Part shown: positions 2,162 through 23,080 of the stretch, piece by piece | How the letters are laid out: each line of letters begins with the position of its first letter | Position numbering within the stretch: the stretch's first letter is position 1 | Assembly: GCA_030536755.1 (NCBI GenBank) | Contig: JAUNPJ010000032.1 | Span: 1-39,515 of the forward strand | Direction of reading: 5' to 3' | DNA: 39,515 nt | Source of the DNA: Eubacteriales bacterium | GTDB taxonomy: Bacteria > Bacillota > Clostridia > Lachnospirales > Lachnospiraceae | The notes under the pieces: generated by a model | Database searches by the model: none | Seen by the model: the letters and a program-made list of their open reading frames with translations, nothing else | Told to the model about the DNA's origin: nothing | Position numbers and translations under genes: made by a program

Positions 2162-3925
2162 TTATGGTAATTGATACATTTTTTTGTAAGCCTGATATTC
2201 TTCCGTAAATTGCTGGTTATCTTCGCTCTTCATGTTTTCCAGATATTCATGTGTATCATATCCATCCTGAAGAATCTGAATAATGCTGACTGCGATATTG
2301 GAACAATGGTCAGACACACGCTCGCAGTTGGTCGTTACATCGGAAAGAACAAATCCCATCTCAATTGTGCATTTTCCTTTACGCAGACGTTTTACATGAC
2401 GTTTCTTCAATTCTGCGCGCAGATAATCAATGACCTCCTCCAGAGGTTCAATCTCTTCCGCACCTTTCATATCTTCCGTCTTGAATACGCTCACGGTCTT
2501 ATCCAGAATATCACTAACGGCTTTTTGGAATACCGCCAGCTCATTTTGTGCTTTTGGAGAAAAAGCCAATCCTTTGTCATGTACTTCCTGTGCAGACTCC
2601 ATGATGTTCAGCGCATGGTCTGAAATACGCTCAAAATCTCCGATACACTGCAGAAGAATCGAACAGGTATGGCTGTCTTTTTCCGAAAGATGTCGGCTTC
2701 CCACTTTAACAAGATAAGTACCAAGCCCATCTTCATAAGCATCCACGATATTTTCGATTTCAACGACTCGCTCTGCTGCCGCCTCATCATAATTCGTCAG
2801 AAGCTGAATGGACGTAGACATGGCTTCCTTTACCAACTCTGCCATGTGATTGCTTACACGCTTACAGTGCTCAATTGCCAGAGAAGGAGAATCCAAAAAA
2901 CGTGCATCCAAAAGCTGCAGCATCTGATTTGTCTCTTCTTTGTCCTCCTCTTTGTCTCGCACCGTCAGACAGGCAAGTTTTACCAGATATTTATTAAACG
3001 GAAGCCACAACAGCGTTGCACCGATATTAAACAAACTGTGTACAACGGCAATTCCGGCCGGATTGGCTGACTCAGCCAGGAATGAAAAATGTGCAAATCC
3101 ATTGATTAAATAAAATCCTGCCATGAATACAACCGTTCCAATCAGGTTAAAATACAGATGCATACAGGCAGTTCTCTGCGCATTCTTTTTAGCACCAATT
3201 GCAGACAGAAGCGCCGTCACACAGGTACCGATATTCTGACCCATGATAATCGGAAGCGCAGAACCATAAGTCACTGCACCAGTCATACACAATGCCTGCA
3301 AAATACCAACAGATGCAGAAGAACTCTGAATCACAGCTGTCAAAATCGTTCCCGCGATCATACCCAAAAACGGATTGGAAAACGCAGTCAGAATGCTGGT
3401 AAATTCCGGCACGTCAGCCAGCGGTTTCACTGCCGCACTCATGGTATCCATTCCCGTCATCAGAACTGCAAAGCCTACCAAAATGGATCCAATATCCTGT
3501 TTTCTCTCTTTTTTGGAAAACAGCATCATAAAGACACCGATAATCGCCAAAATAGGCGAAAAAGAGGAAGGTTTCAGCATCTGAATCAAGAAGCTTTCAC
3601 CTTCTATACCTGTCAAACTTAAAATCCAGGATGTAGCGGTCGTACCGACATTGGCACCCATGATAATACCTACAGCCTGTTCCAATTTCATAATTCCCGA
3701 GTTAACAAAACCTACAGCCATAACTGTGGTTGCCGATGAAGACTGGATCACGGCAGTCACGCCCGCACCCAGAAGAACCGCTTTGAAAATATTAGAAGTC
3801 AGTGTTTCCAGTATTTTCTCAAGGCGTCCGCCGGAGACTTTTGCAAGGCCCTCGCCAAGCACATGCATTCCAAACAGGAACAACGCCAGACCGCCTACCA
3901 TGGATAATACACTAAAAAAATCCAT
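2162..3925 (-). CDS. Na+/phosphate cotransporter family protein with PhoU-like C-terminus
   Basis: This 587-residue membrane protein carries two inverted Na/Pi-cotransporter repeats, marked by the paired motifs QSSSATT with GANVGTT in the first half and QSSSAS with GQNIGTC in the second, over about eight to nine hydrophobic segments (residues 1-315). The last 240 residues are soluble, helical and PhoU-like. The family (NptA/YjbB type) couples sodium to phosphate uptake or releases phosphate when overfull; direction cannot be told from sequence. A GGAGG lies about 12 bases before the ATG, a long spacing. Neighbours give no functional hint, and there is no pst operon nearby. Confidence 0.9.
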   Translation of the reverse strand: MDFFSVLSMVGGLALFLFGMHVLGEGLAKVSGGRLEKILETLTSNIFKAVLLGAGVTAVIQSSSATTVMAVGFVNSGIMKLEQAVGIIMGANVGTTATSWILSLTGIEGESFLIQMLKPSSFSPILAIIGVFMMLFSKKERKQDIGSILVGFAVLMTGMDTMSAAVKPLADVPEFTSILTAFSNPFLGMIAGTILTAVIQSSSASVGILQALCMTGAVTYGSALPIIMGQNIGTCVTALLSAIGAKKNAQRTACMHLYFNLIGTVVFMAGFYLINGFAHFSFLAESANPAGIAVVHSLFNIGATLLWLPFNKYLVKLACLTVRDKEEDKEETNQMLQLLDARFLDSPSLAIEHCKRVSNHMAELVKEAMSTSIQLLTNYDEAAAERVVEIENIVDAYEDGLGTYLVKVGSRHLSEKDSHTCSILLQCIGDFERISDHALNIMESAQEVHDKGLAFSPKAQNELAVFQKAVSDILDKTVSVFKTEDMKGAEEIEPLEEVIDYLRAELKKRHVKRLRKGKCTIEMGFVLSDVTTNCERVSDHCSNIAVSIIQILQDGYDTHEYLENMKSEDNQQFTEEYQAYKKMYQLP

Positions 3926-4070
3926 TTTCTTTTTTCTTCCTCCCGTATTTCATATATTTTTCATCAAATCTTAACACAATATTAGCTTAACTGGTATTCG
4001 TAAAATCCGCAAGAGTTATATTGTTAAATCTATGTAAAATTATTTTACATTCCTTTTCATCAAAATACCA

Positions 4071-4112
4071 AAAAAATCCGCACCGTTTTTCTTATTTTAA
4101 ACGGTACGGATT
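4071..4112 (-). terminator. Terminator after clpC, possibly bidirectional
   Basis: Arms of 14 bases (4075-4088 and 4099-4112) pair with a single mismatch, and T runs flank the stem on both strands. It follows the clpC stop by a few bases. The roughly 140 bases between this hairpin and the cotransporter start (3926-4070) are AT-rich and hold no promoter I can assign with confidence. Confidence 0.8.
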
Positions 4113-4116
4113 TTTT

Positions 4117-6573
4117 CTATTCTTCCACTTTAAAAATGATTTTCTTTCTGTTCAGCCGAACGGATACAGAATCTCCTGATTTTATATTTCCTTCCAGAAT
4201 CTCATTTGCCATAGCATCTTCAATTTTGGACTGAATCGCGCGGCGCAGCGGTCTTGCTCCGTATTTACTGTCAAACCCTTCCTCTGCAATGTAAGTTTTC
4301 ACACCGGCACTGACCTTCAGCGTGATATTCATCTGCTCCTGGCAACGCTTCTGCAGCTGCTTCAAAAGCAATGCTACAATCTGCTGAATATGTTCCTGAT
4401 CCAGAGAATGGAAGACAATGATATCATCGATTCGGTTTAAAAATTCCGGTTTAAAGATTCTTCGCACCTCATCCATGACGCCGGATTTCATTCTCTCATA
4501 GTCATGTTTCGCATCATTGACCGAAGAAAATCCGAGTTTTTTTGGCTCTACGATTGCCTGTGCACCCGCGTTGGAAGTCATGATGATGATCGTCTCTTTG
4601 AAATCAACTTTTCGCCCCTGCGCATCGGTGATATGACCGTCATCGAGTACCTGCAGAAGAATATTAAACACATCTGGATGAGCCTTCTCAATCTCATCAA
4701 ACAAAATAACACTGTACGGATTTCTGCGTACTTTTTCACTGAGCTGACCGCCCTCATCGTAACCGACATATCCTGGAGGAGAACCGATCATCTTGGAAAC
4801 ACTGTGTTTCTCCATATACTCCGACATATCCACACGAATCATCGCCTGTTCACTTCCAAACACCGCTTCCGCCAGAGCCTTCGAAAGCTCCGTCTTACCC
4901 ACACCGGTAGGTCCCAGAAACAGGAAAGAGCCAATCGGTCTGGAAGGGTCTTTCAGACCAACTCTTCCCCGTTTTACCGCCTGTGCTACTGCAGTCACCG
5001 CCTGTTCCTGTCCAATCACGCGCTTATGAAGTTCTTTATCGAGACGGGCAAGGCGCTTGGATTCAGACTCCGCCAGCTTTTTCACCGGGATTTTCGTCCA
5101 TCCTGCCACAATATCGGCAACGGCATTTTCATCAACCACCAGGTTTGCTTTTTTGCATTTCTTACGGTATTTTTCAATCTCGGATTCGATTGCAGTCTCC
5201 AGCTTTGTCTGCTCCTTTTGAATCTCTTTCGCATACGGCAGATCACCATCCTTCAGCGCCTGCTCTTTTTCCATGATCAAGTGCTGAATCCGGTTCTCTG
5301 TCTCAATGATATTTTTTGGAGCTTTAAAACCGGCAAGCTGTACTTTCGAGCATGCCTCATCAATCAGATCCAGCGCTTTATCCGGAAGGAAACGGTCGTT
5401 GATGTAGCGCACTGCCATTTTTACAGCCGCCTCAATCGCAGAGTCCTCAATCGTCACATGGTGATGTCCCTCATAATACGGGCGAAGTCCCTGTAAAATT
5501 GAGATTGTCTCTTCCTGAGAAGGTTCCTCCACAACTACAGGCTGAAATCTTCGTTCCAGCGCCGCATCTTTTTCAATGTATTTGCGGTATTCTTCTCTTG
5601 TAGTAGCTCCGATCAGCTGAATCTCTCCTCTGGAAAGAGAAGGCTTCAAAATATTCGAGGCATCCAGTGCTCCCTCCGCACCTCCTGCACCGATAATCGT
5701 ATGCAGCTCATCGATAAAAAGTAAGATTCCTTTGTTTTCTGATACCTCACGAACCACATTTTTGATGCGTTCTTCAAATTCTCCGCGGTACTTGGAACCA
5801 GCTACCATTCCAGACAGATCAAGCACCACGATACGTTTATCTTTGACGGTATCCGGCACCATGCCCCACACAATTCTCTGGGCAAGGCCTTCCGCGATCG
5901 CCGTTTTTCCTACACCCGGTTCTCCGATCAGGCATGGATTGTTCTTGGTTCGTCTGCTCAAAATCTGTATGATTCTGGCAATCTCATCGTCACGCCCTAC
6001 GATTGGATCCAATTTCCCCTGCGCAGCCATCGCTGTCAGATCACGGCTGTACTGATCGAGAGTCGGCGTTGCACTTGAAGCGGATGCCTTCATCACTCTG
6101 CCGCTTTGCAGATCTTCCTGAGAAAAACGACTGTCCTCTCCAATCGCAACAAGAACAGCCACATACATTTTCTGGATGTTCACGCCCATCGTATAGAGAA
6201 GCCGTGTCGCCACACAATCATTTTCCTTGAGCATAGCCATCAGAATATGCTCCGTCCCAATCTGTTTGCCTTCAAAAGCCGCCGCTTCCTCCGCACTTCT
6301 CTCAATCACCTTCTGCGCTCTTGGTGTCAGACCGATTTCCATATCTGCCGTGGCAACATTAGATGCCGGAGCGATCAGACGATCAATCAGCGACATCAGC
6401 TTTTCTTCATCCACATTGAAATCCGACAGCACCATACTGGCCGTCCCTTCCGTCTCCTTCAGCAGACCAATCAGAATATGCTCCGTTCCTATATAACTAT
6501 GCTTGCAGTATCTGGCCATTTTCTCAGCCAGATTCAGAGCTTCTTTTGCCTGTTTTGTAAATTGCTCCTGCAT
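4117..6573 (-). CDS. clpC: ATP-dependent Clp protease ATPase subunit ClpC
   Basis: ClpC unfolds substrates and feeds them to ClpP. The 818-residue protein shows the double Clp_N repeat (residues 1-145), a first AAA module with Walker A GEPGVGKTA and Walker B LLFIDE, a coiled M region, a second AAA module with GPTGVGKTE and VILFDE, and the ClpP-docking LGF tripeptide (in KKLGFSS). Start: ATG at 6573 with AGGAGG five bases before; an upstream in-frame ATG would overlap the GntR gene. The GntR gene ends 16 bases before this start, so the two are probably one transcript. No ctsR, mcsA or mcsB is adjacent, unlike the classic Firmicutes operon. Confidence 0.96.
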   Translation of the reverse strand: MQEQFTKQAKEALNLAEKMARYCKHSYIGTEHILIGLLKETEGTASMVLSDFNVDEEKLMSLIDRLIAPASNVATADMEIGLTPRAQKVIERSAEEAAAFEGKQIGTEHILMAMLKENDCVATRLLYTMGVNIQKMYVAVLVAIGEDSRFSQEDLQSGRVMKASASSATPTLDQYSRDLTAMAAQGKLDPIVGRDDEIARIIQILSRRTKNNPCLIGEPGVGKTAIAEGLAQRIVWGMVPDTVKDKRIVVLDLSGMVAGSKYRGEFEERIKNVVREVSENKGILLFIDELHTIIGAGGAEGALDASNILKPSLSRGEIQLIGATTREEYRKYIEKDAALERRFQPVVVEEPSQEETISILQGLRPYYEGHHHVTIEDSAIEAAVKMAVRYINDRFLPDKALDLIDEACSKVQLAGFKAPKNIIETENRIQHLIMEKEQALKDGDLPYAKEIQKEQTKLETAIESEIEKYRKKCKKANLVVDENAVADIVAGWTKIPVKKLAESESKRLARLDKELHKRVIGQEQAVTAVAQAVKRGRVGLKDPSRPIGSFLFLGPTGVGKTELSKALAEAVFGSEQAMIRVDMSEYMEKHSVSKMIGSPPGYVGYDEGGQLSEKVRRNPYSVILFDEIEKAHPDVFNILLQVLDDGHITDAQGRKVDFKETIIIMTSNAGAQAIVEPKKLGFSSVNDAKHDYERMKSGVMDEVRRIFKPEFLNRIDDIIVFHSLDQEHIQQIVALLLKQLQKRCQEQMNITLKVSAGVKTYIAEEGFDSKYGARPLRRAIQSKIEDAMANEILEGNIKSGDSVSVRLNRKKIIFKVEE

Positions 6574-16342: not shown

Positions 16343-16419
16343 AAAAAAAGCACTTTTCGGGCAGACTTAGACCCGGAAAGTGCTCAAAATTCTTAAAATG
16401 AAAAATATTCCGTGAGTCT
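16343..16419 (-). promoter_or_regulatory. Candidate transcription attenuator in the panD leader
   Basis: On the minus strand arms 16372-16384 and 16349-16361 form a 13-base stem (one wobble) followed by seven T, a full intrinsic terminator inside the 5' leader. The upstream arm overlaps an alternative pairing: AGAC plus CGGAA (16416-16419, 16408-16412) with TTCCG plus GTCT (16369-16378). The two structures exclude each other, as in an attenuator or riboswitch. The promoter lies about 100 bases further up. I could not match it to a named riboswitch; a pan-motif RNA was considered but its bulged-A stem is not obvious. Confidence 0.55.
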
Positions 16420-16516
16420 TACTTCTTTTACAAATATAAGCTCAAATATCTTGTATAAAACAACAGTCAATCAGATTTGAATATAGTTTTGAAGAACAAA
16501 TACTATCTCAAGTCGT

Positions 16517-19016: not shown

Positions 19017-21398
19017 TCAACCCATAGCTGTTGAACATGGATCAAGTCTTTTGATTATATCTTCCTGTATTTCCGGAGAAAGGTCAAGGAAATTCACAAA
19101 AGTTCCGTGAATTCTTACAATATATACACCACTTGGCGCATATTTCTTTGGATTTGCCAGAACTGTTCTGAGCATTTCCGGTGTTGTTACATTGACATAC
19201 AGATAAAACGGCGAGACTTTTCCTTCATCATAGCTGTTGAAGAATAACGGTGTAAAGATTTTTGTCTTAAACTCCATGCCCTTCTCTTCCATCGTCTGTC
19301 CCTTAAAGTATCCCGGATTGATACCAAAGTGCGAAGCATAACCTCCATTCATTGTCTCAAATGGAAGATGACGATTGGAGAGCATACGCATTCCCAGTCC
19401 TCCGGAAGCCTCTCCATATAATGGGTCTACACCATAGTTCAGCATTTCTCTCGCTTTTCGTCCGTCCGGTGTTGCGCCAACCCAGTATCCATACATCAAA
19501 TGTGTGGATGGTGTTGCATAATCCGGACGGAATGGATTGCCCAGATAGTTTTTCTTAGAGGAAACCATGGCAGATACTTTTCTTGCAATCTCTGCTGCCT
19601 CTTTGTCGACGCGCGCAATGTTGTTTCCGAATTTATCACAATCCAGAAGGTACTGGTGCATTTCCTCATCCTGTTCAAAGTTCGTGCGAAGTGCTTCCAA
19701 GAAACGATTGGCATCCTCCGGCCTTTCCTCTACGAGTGTGTCAATCGCGATAAAGGAATCCGCCAGCACACTCAATCCGTGAATCAGGCAACCGCTGCCA
19801 TTGTACTTTGTTCCCTGCTTCTGTGTGTCACGCAGATCAATGCCACTCTCAATACCACCCATCATCGTTGACAAAAATGGCACCTGATACAGTCCGATCG
19901 CACGGGAAGCTCCATTGGCTGCTTCCACCATCTCATCTACATAAAATTCCAGTTCTTTATAAAATACCTCACGGATATTTTTCAGAAGGTCCAGGTTGTT
20001 GTCATAACCAAGTTCTTCTCTCGTCTTTCCAATCTGCTCACCTGTGATTTCAGATTTTCCGCCCTGCAGAACCAGTTCCAGAACCTTCGGCATATTCAAC
20101 CAGCTGTTGGTGGTATTTCCATTGTCTTTTCCCATGATCAGCGGTTCCTGACATCCTGCCACCGAATAATCCGGAAGATCCTCCGGGTCTACTCCTTTCC
20201 TGCGAAGCACTTCAAAAATCGCATCATCGTTAAACAGAGATGGTGTCAGTACACCTGGTGTAAAGAAGAATCGTCCCATCTCCTCATATAATTTATCCGG
20301 TGTGTTTTTATGAAGCTTCACAGACAGAATCGGCTGCGGAAGGTTCATATCATAATAAGCGTCAAACAGCGCGTAGGAAGTCGGATTGGTCAGATCATTT
20401 CCCTGTGCATCCCTTCCTCCGATAATCAGATTCTGCGAAATTGCCCAGCTTCTGTCTGCTACATTGAAAAATACCAGCATATGCTTCAAAAGGGCTGCTG
20501 TCGTATCACGGTCCAGATCTTCTTTTGCACGATATGGCTCAAAAATGCGGTCCGCATTTCCAACAGAAAAAGCAAATGGATTTGGTGTCTGCTCCACACA
20601 CATCGTCTGCCAGATCAGCAAGAAAGACTGAATCGCCTCGTACAGATTTTCTGCTCCATGAGCCGGAACTTTTTTCAGAGTTTCTGCCATCAGCGTGTAT
20701 CTGCATTTTTCTTTTCCTTCGGACTTTTCTGCCTGTTCCTGTGCCATGGTACTGTAACGCTCTGCCAGTACCAGCATCGCCTGAACAGACAGTTTCATCG
20801 CCTCATAATAGTCTTTTTTATCCTCATGTTCCTTCTGCTTCTGGCTGAGTTCTTCAATGACTGCCAGTGCACCATCTTTCAGAAAATGACGTACATTCGG
20901 AATCAGATGTCCCGTTACCTGTTCCATGAAAAAGACTGCTTCTTTTGTATATTTTTCTGCCGGTGCATAGGCCGCCATCAGCTCTTTGGCGAATTTATTT
21001 TTTGCATAATAATCTTTTACCTTCGCGATGCGTTCTTCCGTAATATCACCAATTGGATCAATGTCGCCGAATACTGCAGTCGGATCACAGTATCCGGCGA
21101 AAGAACTTACCTGAAATGCCGGATTGATCAGTGCATAAGAACGGGCAAATGCATCATCCTGCGTTCCTGCGAATACATGATAGTTCCCGATTGTAAGGGG
21201 AATTCTCTTCATAACCTGAATCAAGGTCTTTCCAATACGGATGCTGTCCGGATCGTCTTTGTATAATTCATCACATTCCATCGCGATCTCTCTTGCCCAA
21301 AACCAGCCTTCCAGATGATCCAGCTTTCTTTCTTCCTGAAAGCGCTCTTTTGCCAATTTTGTAATTTCTTCTGCGTTATAAATTTCCTGAATTCTCAA
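19017..21398 (-). CDS. Glycyl radical enzyme, pyruvate formate-lyase-like eliminase of unknown substrate
   Basis: The 793-residue protein has the PFL-like barrel and a C-terminal glycyl radical domain. The thiyl cysteine is C416 in AGCQEP, with E418 in the general-base position used by the dehydratase/lyase branch; PFL's double cysteine is absent. The radical glycine is G765 in RIHGTFVNFLDL, where most relatives have RVxGYS, so the residue after Gly is Thr instead of Tyr. Start is TTG at 21398 with AGGAGG upstream. Its activase lies 810 bases upstream across two repeat copies. A GntR/LacI-type regulator and a sedoheptulokinase-like kinase follow. Substrate unknown; a sugar, polyol or sugar phosphate is my inference. 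Confidence 0.9.
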   Translation of the reverse strand: MRIQEIYNAEEITKLAKERFQEERKLDHLEGWFWAREIAMECDELYKDDPDSIRIGKTLIQVMKRIPLTIGNYHVFAGTQDDAFARSYALINPAFQVSSFAGYCDPTAVFGDIDPIGDITEERIAKVKDYYAKNKFAKELMAAYAPAEKYTKEAVFFMEQVTGHLIPNVRHFLKDGALAVIEELSQKQKEHEDKKDYYEAMKLSVQAMLVLAERYSTMAQEQAEKSEGKEKCRYTLMAETLKKVPAHGAENLYEAIQSFLLIWQTMCVEQTPNPFAFSVGNADRIFEPYRAKEDLDRDTTAALLKHMLVFFNVADRSWAISQNLIIGGRDAQGNDLTNPTSYALFDAYYDMNLPQPILSVKLHKNTPDKLYEEMGRFFFTPGVLTPSLFNDDAIFEVLRRKGVDPEDLPDYSVAGCQEPLIMGKDNGNTTNSWLNMPKVLELVLQGGKSEITGEQIGKTREELGYDNNLDLLKNIREVFYKELEFYVDEMVEAANGASRAIGLYQVPFLSTMMGGIESGIDLRDTQKQGTKYNGSGCLIHGLSVLADSFIAIDTLVEERPEDANRFLEALRTNFEQDEEMHQYLLDCDKFGNNIARVDKEAAEIARKVSAMVSSKKNYLGNPFRPDYATPSTHLMYGYWVGATPDGRKAREMLNYGVDPLYGEASGGLGMRMLSNRHLPFETMNGGYASHFGINPGYFKGQTMEEKGMEFKTKIFTPLFFNSYDEGKVSPFYLYVNVTTPEMLRTVLANPKKYAPSGVYIVRIHGTFVNFLDLSPEIQEDIIKRLDPCSTAMG

Positions 21399-21437
21399 AT
21401 CTATTTCTCCTCCTTTTTATAATTGTTTCCACAACTC

Positions 21438-21796
21438 CCTATTTGTCGGGTTGTATGTGCACCACTTTCCTGGTCAACGAAGCAGAGTCTCAACGGCAAG
21501 GTTGGGCTTGAGGGTTTCCGAACGGCCATTTGCACAGGGAAGGTTTTCCATATCAAGTGCGATATCTCCGCTTCCGCTGGCAACCTGTTGATTTTCTTGT
21601 CTGGCTGCGCCGCCGATAGATTGCTTTACAAACAAACTCGCACGCGGTGCTCAAACAGTGTTTGCAAAGCAATCGCTATGCTCGCCAATCCGGCGAAAAT
21701 CTGCCAAAGGTCTGCCCTCGGAAGCGGAGATATCCGCACTTTGATTATGGAAAGTTGTCAATCTGTGCAAATGGGCCGTTCTACTTTGTTGGCATT
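21438..21796 (+). repeat. Structured repeat, copy A (plus orientation)
   Basis: Copy A begins CCTATTTGTCGGGTTGTATG and shares with copy B the head (about 55 bases) and a central core. It folds as one long imperfect hairpin: arms 21520-21576 and 21719-21781, core 21577-21718. Inside the core, GATTGCTTT (21619-21627) and CAAACA (21629-21634) pair with TGTTTG (21659-21664) and AAAGCAATC (21666-21674), capped by GCACGCGGTGC. Open frames through it (one of 137 codons) shift frame against copy B near the head, so I regard them as non-coding. The right boundary is approximate. Confidence 0.8.
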
Positions 21797-22190
21797 GTCT
21801 TTTGTTGGACGATATACCAAACAAAAGAGCGTGTAAAATTTAATGTTTTTTCAAAATTTGCATCATTTATAAGAACATAGGAGTTTTCTACATGACCGCA
21901 CTCGTTCGAGAGGGATATACCAGCGCAGACATTTGGAGAAATTTTCACAGTTTTTTCGAGCATAGCGATTGCTCGCGACGCACTGTTTGAGCACCACGTG
22001 CGAGTTTGCGTCAAGAGCAATCCATAAGCGGCGCAGAAAAAGCAAGAAAATCGACATGCCTGCGCTGGTATATCCCTCTCGGATGAAAGGCGGTCATGAA
22101 AAAACTCCGGAAGTAATCCCCCTACCCCTGTCGGTGGAAAGTGTTTCGTTGACCAGGAAAAGCGGTGCACATACGACCCTACAAACAGGA
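21797..22190 (-). repeat. Structured repeat, copy B (minus orientation)
   Basis: Copy B is a diverged inverse copy of A, starting at 22190 with CCTGTTTGTAGGGTCGTATG. Its outer arms (21880-21928 and 22060-22108) are self-complementary over about 49 bases but unlike those of copy A in sequence. The core helix GATTGCTC/GAGCAATC plus GACGCA/TGCGTC (21967-21982, 22007-22022) replaces A's GATTGCTTT/AAAGCAATC plus CAAACA/TGTTTG, with paired changes. A small hairpin with CTTTTGTT arms (about 21802-21828) marks the junction between copies. Read with the operon, it lies in the activase-enzyme transcript. The left boundary is approximate. Confidence 0.8.
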
Positions 22191-22207
22191 ATTTTCGTTT
22201 TTAATAA

Positions 22208-23080
22208 TCAGGTACGCACGACCTGTATTCCTTTGCTGCGAAATGTGTATTCAAAGAACCGAACGATTTCCGGAAGAATTTTTCCCGGCTTCATCTGATA
22301 TGTATAACCGCACTGTTCCCATTTTCCTTTGCCAAATTCATGGTACGTAAGAAGCTCCAGTCTGACATTTTCTCTCGCCGCAAAGTTTCCCAGAAATTCT
22401 GCAAACATCTGCGCCTCTTCCTTGCTGTCATTGAATCCCGGTATCAGTGGAATCCGTAAAAGTACATCTGAATGACTCTTTGCTGCCATCTGAATATTCT
22501 GTAAAATCTGTGTATTCGGCATGCCCAGCCACTGCTTATGTTTTTCATTGTAGCAGCTTTTGATGTCCATGATCCACTCATCCACCAGAGGAAGATATTC
22601 TTCCATCCGCGGATGTGTTCCATTACTCTCGATGGCCGTGTGAATACCTTCTTCTTTCAGTCTGGTCAAAAATAGTTTTGCTGCTTCAAACTGCATGGTC
22701 ACCTCACCGCCAGTCAACGTAACGCCGCCTCCATCGAAAAACATCGGTCTGCTTTCGATACATTCCTGAACCAGAGTCTCCACGTCATATTCCTGGCAGG
22801 AAAAACGCAATCCTTTCTGTCTCCGTCCTTTCACACAATTCATTTCCTTGCAATCCCGGCAAGTCTCCCTGTTCAATCTGCCGTTTTCTACCGCACCCCT
22901 GGGGCAGCAGCTTTCATCCAGCCATTCCTTTTCAGTCAGCAGCACACCTGCGGGGCACATTCCCTCCGGATTGGAACACCAGGGACAATGCATATTGCAG
23001 CCCTGCAGATGGTAGATCAGGCGATTGCCTCTTCCATCCTGGGAATAATTGAACCCTTTCTGAAATACCTTCAGCTTCAT
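22208..23080 (-). CDS. Glycyl radical enzyme activating enzyme (radical SAM)
   Basis: This 290-residue radical SAM protein would generate the glycyl radical on the neighbouring enzyme. It has the cluster motif CNMHCPWC (CX3CX2C) near residue 30, the SAM-binding GGEVT segment, and a cysteine-rich insert (CCPRGAV, CRDCKEMNC) in the place of the ferredoxin domain of clostridial activases. The insert has fewer cysteines than the usual two CxxCxxCxxxC sets, so perhaps only one extra cluster. AGGAGG precedes ATG at 23080. It is the first gene behind the double-operator promoter. Confidence 0.92.
   Translation of the reverse strand: MKLKVFQKGFNYSQDGRGNRLIYHLQGCNMHCPWCSNPEGMCPAGVLLTEKEWLDESCCPRGAVENGRLNRETCRDCKEMNCVKGRRQKGLRFSCQEYDVETLVQECIESRPMFFDGGGVTLTGGEVTMQFEAAKLFLTRLKEEGIHTAIESNGTHPRMEEYLPLVDEWIMDIKSCYNEKHKQWLGMPNTQILQNIQMAAKSHSDVLLRIPLIPGFNDSKEEAQMFAEFLGNFAARENVRLELLTYHEFGKGKWEQCGYTYQMKPGKILPEIVRFFEYTFRSKGIQVVRT

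Follow-up and report, generated by a model that had tools for sequence, protein, structure and literature searches.

In bacteria, MITEs and small intergenic repeats (for example, bcr1 and the RU/ERIC family of enterobacteria) are non-coding, bear long terminal inverted repeats, and are dispersed in intergenic regions. In the attC sites of integrons, the structure and the unpaired bases are conserved, and the paired arms are free to vary. REP and REPIN palindromes, tagged with GTAG or CGTC at the end, are 20–40 bp long (PMC3733652, available text); nowhere in this text do the terms Clostridi-, Firmicutes, Lachnospir-, Roseburia, or Eubacterium occur. Another described group comprises 92 stem-loop families from 40 genomes (PMC2267715, available part), and these repeated intergenic sequences with a common secondary structure resemble the core family considered here at the level of description. 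In the published literature, searched mostly by titles, we found no description of the core repeat, and among the matches listed for short core motif strings there was no bacterial-repeat title.

The repeat was analyzed in a 39,515-nt stretch of DNA from a Lachnospiraceae genome, called the window below. On balance, it seems rather likely that the locus contains a non-autonomous, hairpin-forming mobile DNA element, that its family is defined by a palindromic core of ~147 nt, and that the folded DNA is recognized in trans.

Structure of the composite element and its genomic site

The window contains one non-coding element of ~760 bp (positions 21433–22194), in which terminal inverted repeats surround two inverted hairpins, A on the plus strand and B on the minus strand. 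Its features are as follows.

21433..22194, no strand assigned: entire composite element, with approximate outer ends; supported by the outer inverted repeats I3 and I5 and by similar copies at other places in the genome
21433..21484, plus strand: left terminal inverted repeat (I3, I5), with GTATGTGCACC at 21453–21463
21526..21774, plus strand: hairpin A with its own terminal stem (inverted repeats I4 and I10; ssDNA fold)
21572..21718, plus strand: core A, a full-length covariance-model match (123.1 bits with model R2)
21606..21617, plus strand: left side of the conserved middle internal loop of core A, TGCGCCGCCGAT (alignment; position read from the sequence)
21619..21674, plus strand: variable inner helix of core A, both arms and the apex between them (inverted repeat I6)
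21634..21659, plus strand: conserved apical segment of core A, AAACTCGC-hairpin-GCTCAAACAGT (alignment; position read from the sequence)
21675..21684, plus strand: right side of the middle internal loop of core A, GCTATGCTCG (alignment; position read from the sequence)
21885..22104, minus strand: hairpin B with its own terminal stem (inverted repeats I2 and I8; ssDNA fold)
21922..22070, minus strand: core B, a full-length covariance-model match (115.6 bits with model R2)
21967..22022, minus strand: variable inner helix of core B, both arms and the apex between them (position read from the sequence; fold)
22142..22194, minus strand: right terminal inverted repeat (I3, I5), with GGTGCACATAC at 22164–22174

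An inverted-repeat search of the window pairs 21433–21468 with 22159–22194 and 21466–21484 with 22142–22160; the window copy is a pair of cores inside terminal repeats of ~50 bp. Hairpins A and B form an inverted repeat with 96-nt arms that are 78% complementary. The initial annotation described two head-to-head copies of a repeat. Two inverted cores are indeed present, but they are not separate copies: the "head" common to A and B is the terminal inverted repeat of a single element, and the unit is thus one composite element. Folded as single-stranded DNA, it has a predicted energy of –196.5 kcal/mol, compared with –102.5 ± 4.1 in 20 shuffles (z = –23), and the predicted fold contains the outer stem and both hairpins.

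In the core plan, the terminal stem is followed by a second one, then by an asymmetric internal loop (TGCGCCGCYTAT / GCTATGCTCG) and a variable inner stem; the apical segment is AAACTCGC-mini-hairpin-GCTCARACAGT. The inner arms occupy 21619–21634 and 21659–21674 in core A (plus strand; inverted repeat I6) and 21967–21982 and 22007–22022 in core B (minus strand; read from the sequence). The compensatory changes initially reported for this helix are exactly as stated: CAAACA/TGTTTG in A corresponds to GACGCA/TGCGTC in B, with both partners replaced in three pairs (C-G to G-C, A-T to C-G, and A-T to G-C). The same is true of the one changed pair in the outer helix, GATTGCTTT/AAAGCAATC in A and GATTGCTC/GAGCAATC in B. 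The apical segments compared are GCACGCGGTGCTCAAACAG in A and GCACGTGGTGCTCAAACAG in B.

The element encodes no recognizable conserved protein: its three longest ORFs (109–137 aa) have no Pfam match, and all frames are interrupted, as expected from the earlier argument against a protein. In line with the initial remark that no named RNA is known with this layout, neither the element nor 14 loci with other cores gave a match at Rfam gathering scores; a 1-kb stretch yielded only two sub-threshold matches at chance level. The only Rfam match in the window is a pan motif (RF01749) at 16410–16509 on the minus strand (40 bits, above the gathering score).

The placement of the element between a glycyl radical activase and its enzyme was correctly recognized. 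The gene of a PFL-like glycyl radical enzyme (19017–21398, minus strand; PF02901) is on one side, and the activase gene (22208–23080, minus strand), whose product scores above the cut-off of TIGR02494, is on the other. The enzyme itself scores under the cut-off of each named NCBIfam equivalog listed. In the congener G001, the activase–enzyme gap is 62 nt and the element is absent. The site is occupied in the genome of the window (G000) and in the congener G002, and empty in the more distant G001.

Distribution, arrangement, and mobility of the core

The expectation of dispersed copies across Lachnospiraceae was borne out by a covariance-model search (model R1), which found the ~147-nt core in 34 of the 299 family genomes sampled, G000 included, at E ≤ 1e-3 (28 at E < 1e-6). 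A blastn survey of 397 family genomes, with only two candidates scored per genome, matched 19 of them, G000 included, mostly in the core only. When more candidates were scored, the single-contig genomes G307 and G216 proved to have 33 and 17 core copies, respectively, dispersed and without arrays; in the genus of G307, the core is present in 7 of 23 genomes. In a sample of the phylum, model R2 matched 7 of 398 genomes, namely G000, two more of the family, and four from three other families (31–39 bits). The seven weak loci of this sample have in common the apical AAACTCGC-GCTCARACAGT segment, situated in long hairpins. Five loci from other families (L355, L358, L359, L360, and L362) combine long hairpins and the same apical segment with different lower loops. 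An exact pattern was found in 98 stretches of named genomes; the 80 listed belong to Lachnospiraceae, Blautia, Eubacterium, unspecified Clostridia/Eubacteriales, and one Prevotella MAG, the match in the latter (L228) not being confirmed by R1. Contigs of the culturable [Eubacterium] cellulosolvens LD2006 are also among the matches.

A phage or plasmid origin was rejected: plasmid and phage collections contained no DNA similar to the element, and matches in viral contigs are few. The strict pattern matched no stretches of these contigs and a looser pattern matched four (L368–L371). Model R2 scored L371 at 97.5 bits (at a contig end), L370 at 30.9, and L368 at 21.4 (E 0.0037), and gave no match in L369; by inspection, an obvious hairpin is seen in L369–L371 and none in L368. 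So far, the core family has been seen mainly in Lachnospiraceae.

The core stands alone in G307 and forms inverted pairs with similar spacing in G216, G147, UBA4348, and the genus of the window. Nearly each copy in G307 has its own terminal stem (30 arms were listed; the stem of L172 is paired poorly), and these stems are unrelated except for a weak AGAAAATTT-like motif. Arms that differ from copy to copy, with only a weak motif in common, are not explained by one MITE having simply been amplified. In G267, four copies are near-identical and have the common ends GACAAACGCATGAAT...ATTCATGCGTTTGTC, and thus the terminal stem is part of the repeated unit there. Pre-existing terminator hairpins as insertion targets were not favored, because the G267 copies carry their own stem and the G307 stems are long. 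The ends are TGACACAGAACCGTCC...GGACGGTTCTGTGTCA in UBA4348 and GTATGTGCACC... in the genus of the window; the UBA4348 loci with cores between ends of the former type are L216, L219, L245, and L286.

In the loci L287 and L258 from other genomes, which represent the same host locus, core orientation is opposite at the two sites; the intergenic DNA is unalignable, so both inversion and independent insertion may explain the difference. Inverted cores around genes (L287, L258, and L151) were rejected as transposons: the enclosed genes differ, and the first two are a single host locus. In L151 (G131:C114), a 322-aa ORF at 3417–4385, tyrosine recombinase-like by eye, lies between inverted cores 2.6 kb apart.

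G000 (3.84 Mb in 145 contigs) contains 108 blastn pieces of the element, with both palindrome strands counted, and 42 matches to its left end (window 21431–21510, 80 nt) at E ≤ 1. With 150 candidates scored per genome, core matches number 31 in G000, 47 in G002, and 0 in G001. Eleven G000 loci have flanks corresponding to G002 loci that also have the element, a count that gives no rate, because most of the G002 loci were selected for its presence. When L028 is compared with L261 and L024 with L306 (G000 vs. G002), the flanks agree and the inside is inverted, and the G002 element C30:3192–3939 joins flanks of two different G000 copies. A comparison of L010 with L039 was left out, since it paired ends that do not correspond.

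The element has the terminal inverted repeats and the lack of coding capacity of a MITE, and insertion polymorphism is seen for one copy, L062, whose site is contiguous and empty in G002 (C113), ~20 nt on either side of the terminal repeats also being missing. For the other seven of eight flank pairs searched, we found one side, separate places, or nothing. No target site duplication was detected in 19 two-ended copies from these two genomes, since the longest word common to the two flanks averaged 5.3 nt, vs. 5.4 nt in shuffled pairings; the flanks were of 45 nt, many of them including outer terminal-repeat bases, and a short duplication farther out could escape this comparison.

Individual copies have lost, exchanged, or gained parts. 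One or both hairpins are lost in L015, L016, L026, L061, and L062; in the deleted copies, which also include L024, either one or both hairpins are gone or A is fused directly to B. L005 keeps B and both ends, A being replaced by other DNA. A chimera with the outer stem of A and the inner helix of B occurs in both sister genomes (L017 and L301), so some double changes come from exchange between copies. Another palindrome family, whose ends resemble GTACA-CGAAT-ATAA, lies inside the element copies L004 (within 1440–2380, a hairpin of ~55 nt) and L306 (within 481–1365, a larger insert). Near the element ends in L015, L033, and L064, REP-like GGACAGGTTTCTGTCC or its variant adjoins the terminal repeat. 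Among the copies inspected, none was autonomous in the sense of enclosing a transposase within the ends of the element; many of them, as well as most terminal-repeat-only matches, stop at contig ends.

Covariation of the core helices

In an unfitted alignment of 18 cores, fourteen of them from other genera, 24 of the 30 pairs have double changes and 22 columns are invariant; many genera keep both the asymmetric internal loops and the apical segment. The covariation anticipated across many copies was confirmed with 110 distinct copies, drawn from 115 matches at 100 chosen loci: all 30 pairs covary, doubly changed cells number 867, vs. 228 in shuffled data, and 91.9% of 3187 cells hold standard pairs. 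Within one genome, 19 of the 30 pairs covary, with 101 doubly changed cells vs. 29.6 shuffled. Stems are more variable than loops in G307 (mean entropy 0.54 and 0.42 bits, respectively), the difference being modest.

The core thus has the covarying helices of a structured RNA. It does not have the wobble pairs well above A-C that such an RNA would show: on the core strand, there are 2878 Watson–Crick, 50 G-T, 77 A-C, and 182 other cells (3187 in total), vs. 221, 14, 0, and 0 in 235 cells of the tRNA control from the same loci (11 distinct tRNAs, 16 listed). The corresponding counts in 30 of the 33 G307 copies, three short ones being dropped, are 817, 4, 21, and 53, and the terminal stems of two genomes contain 30 G-T and 43 A-C cells. 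Alignments A2 and A4 were fitted to the structure, and the RNA parameters used for fitting favor G-U. As far as sequence comparison can tell, the covariation is not RNA-like, and stems that change yet stay matched point to folded DNA rather than an RNA gene.

A small RNA, 3'-UTR, or cis-regulatory structure under selection for RNA folding would account for the strong covariation with conserved unpaired loops and for the detection of the asymmetric core by one strand orientation of the model. Between pairs of genes transcribed in the same direction there is also a weak tilt, the core running against transcription in 21 rows and with it in 13 (some loci being present twice and at least one match being spurious). 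The inner-helix mismatches in G307 and G216 are A-C (12), never G-T, and read on the minus strand they would be wobble pairs; however, several of these occupy one common site and reflect few events. Over all helices neither strand has the tRNA-like wobble excess, Rfam gives no match, no clear rule of gene orientation emerges from the mixed orientations, and orthologous insertions are found with the inside inverted. Because G-T is not above A-C, orientation is mixed, and corresponding sites hold both orientations, a DNA hairpin fits better, and RNA as the molecule, one of the two initially considered, is quite improbable. The covariation could instead be purely mutational if the palindromes were passive, the arms changing by template switching without selection for folding and an ordinary transposase spreading the copies. 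Template switching is described as making multibase compensatory changes and as able to create and mend hairpins in one event (PMC8794818, available part). Consistent with such a process, nearest copies in G307 differ by 64 two-sided vs. 37 one-sided changes, and, between sister-genome copies, two base pairs are changed on both arms (CC/GG to TT/AA). G307 copy pairs with two differing pairs have 8 two-sided vs. 2 one-sided changes; those with a single differing pair have 1 vs. 3, which is against a pure double-change mechanism. Arm copying alone would moreover erase the loops and the apical segment that are kept across many genera, and the chimera in L017 and L301 demonstrates that exchange between copies also yields double changes, so we consider purely passive palindromes improbable. 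Still, part of the covariation may be mutational, produced by template switching between the arms, and compensatory change alone, which the initial annotation took as the mark of selection on structure, does not prove such selection.

Two other explanations concern the system that moves or recombines the core. A REPIN-like element moved by a RAYT or IS200-type Y1 transposase would agree with the inverted palindrome pairs, the intergenic dispersal, and the absence of detected target duplication, and the UBA4348 cores lie between REP-like ends, TGACACAGAACCGTCC / GGACGGTTCTGTGTCA, which we take to be reminiscent of RAYT-linked repeats. However, 11 of 19 core-bearing genomes have Y1_Tnp (PF01797), as do 13 of 21 genomes without cores (for G024, G026, G028, and G030, the absence of cores rests on a DNA search), and it was not found in G307 with its 33 cores; none of 30 Y1 loci has a core within the flanks examined, and the core measures ~147 nt, not 20–40 bp. 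A RAYT/IS200 partner was rejected on this lack of association, the mobilizing enzyme was not found in the family surveyed (PF01797/Y1), and the REPIN explanation is very unlikely. The core could instead be a folded single-strand site, attC-like or of another type, at which a tyrosine recombinase acts, rather than a mobile element. In favor of this are its unpaired bases, which are conserved, its paired arms, which vary, and its strand asymmetry, all resembling attC sites, and the putative integrase gene between two cores in G131. The latter case is a single example, and the copies in G307 and G216 are dispersed, not arrayed, which makes a site of this type extremely unlikely.

Proposed mechanism and comparison with known systems

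Folded DNA, together with arm-to-arm copying or conversion and selection, explains the data better than RNA. We suggest that an enzyme supplied in trans would recognize folded DNA, either single-stranded or cruciform, through the conserved unpaired loops. The arms would stay complementary because copying or conversion between them in palindromic DNA alters both sides at once, and selection would keep the loops and reject poorly folding copies. The multiple copies, the covariation, the one empty site, and the inversions between sister genomes also support the mobile structured element envisaged in the initial annotation. Probably, this is a new family of MITE-like mobile DNA hairpins recognized through conserved unpaired loops.

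A broader possibility, which we put forward tentatively and regard as somewhat unlikely, is an undescribed Bacillota-wide class of mobile DNA, whose enzyme would read the unpaired loops and accept arms of any sequence, re-made as mutual complements during movement or replication. Recognition of the loops under arms of any sequence would account for the same core under quite different terminal repeats. The distant relatives, in four genomes of three other families and in proviral contigs, have only the apical AAACTCGC-GCTCARACAGT segment in common.

If the core family does consist of mobile DNA hairpins, Lachnospiraceae genomes would gain a large unnamed repeat family, with 33 core matches in a single-contig genome, and it would account for assembly breaks, inversions, and rearrangements at core sites. 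The family would also provide a natural test of the origin of compensatory changes, as the near absence of wobble intermediates and the double changes between close copies are the prediction of template switching, and it would illustrate that strong covariation alone is no proof of an RNA gene. The mobilizing enzyme, once found, could reveal a structure-guided recombination system.

Compared with known systems, the core family shares with REP and REPIN sequences intergenic, dispersed palindromes that are often paired in opposite orientation and probably mobile. It differs from them in the ~147-nt core with larger arms in place of a 20–40 bp palindrome tagged with GTAG or CGTC, in the conserved internal loops, in the genome-specific ends, and in having no linked Y1 (RAYT) transposase. 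Like MITEs, RU/ERIC, and bcr1, the element is non-coding, intergenic, and dispersed, with long terminal inverted repeats; unlike them, the family has terminal repeats that are unrelated, arms that vary yet stay paired, and no detected target duplication. Integron attC sites are similar in principle, by analogy only, the core being without arrays. The mobile hairpin repeat family described here is new, a variant of the REP/MITE kind with an unusual modular core and DNA-like covariation.
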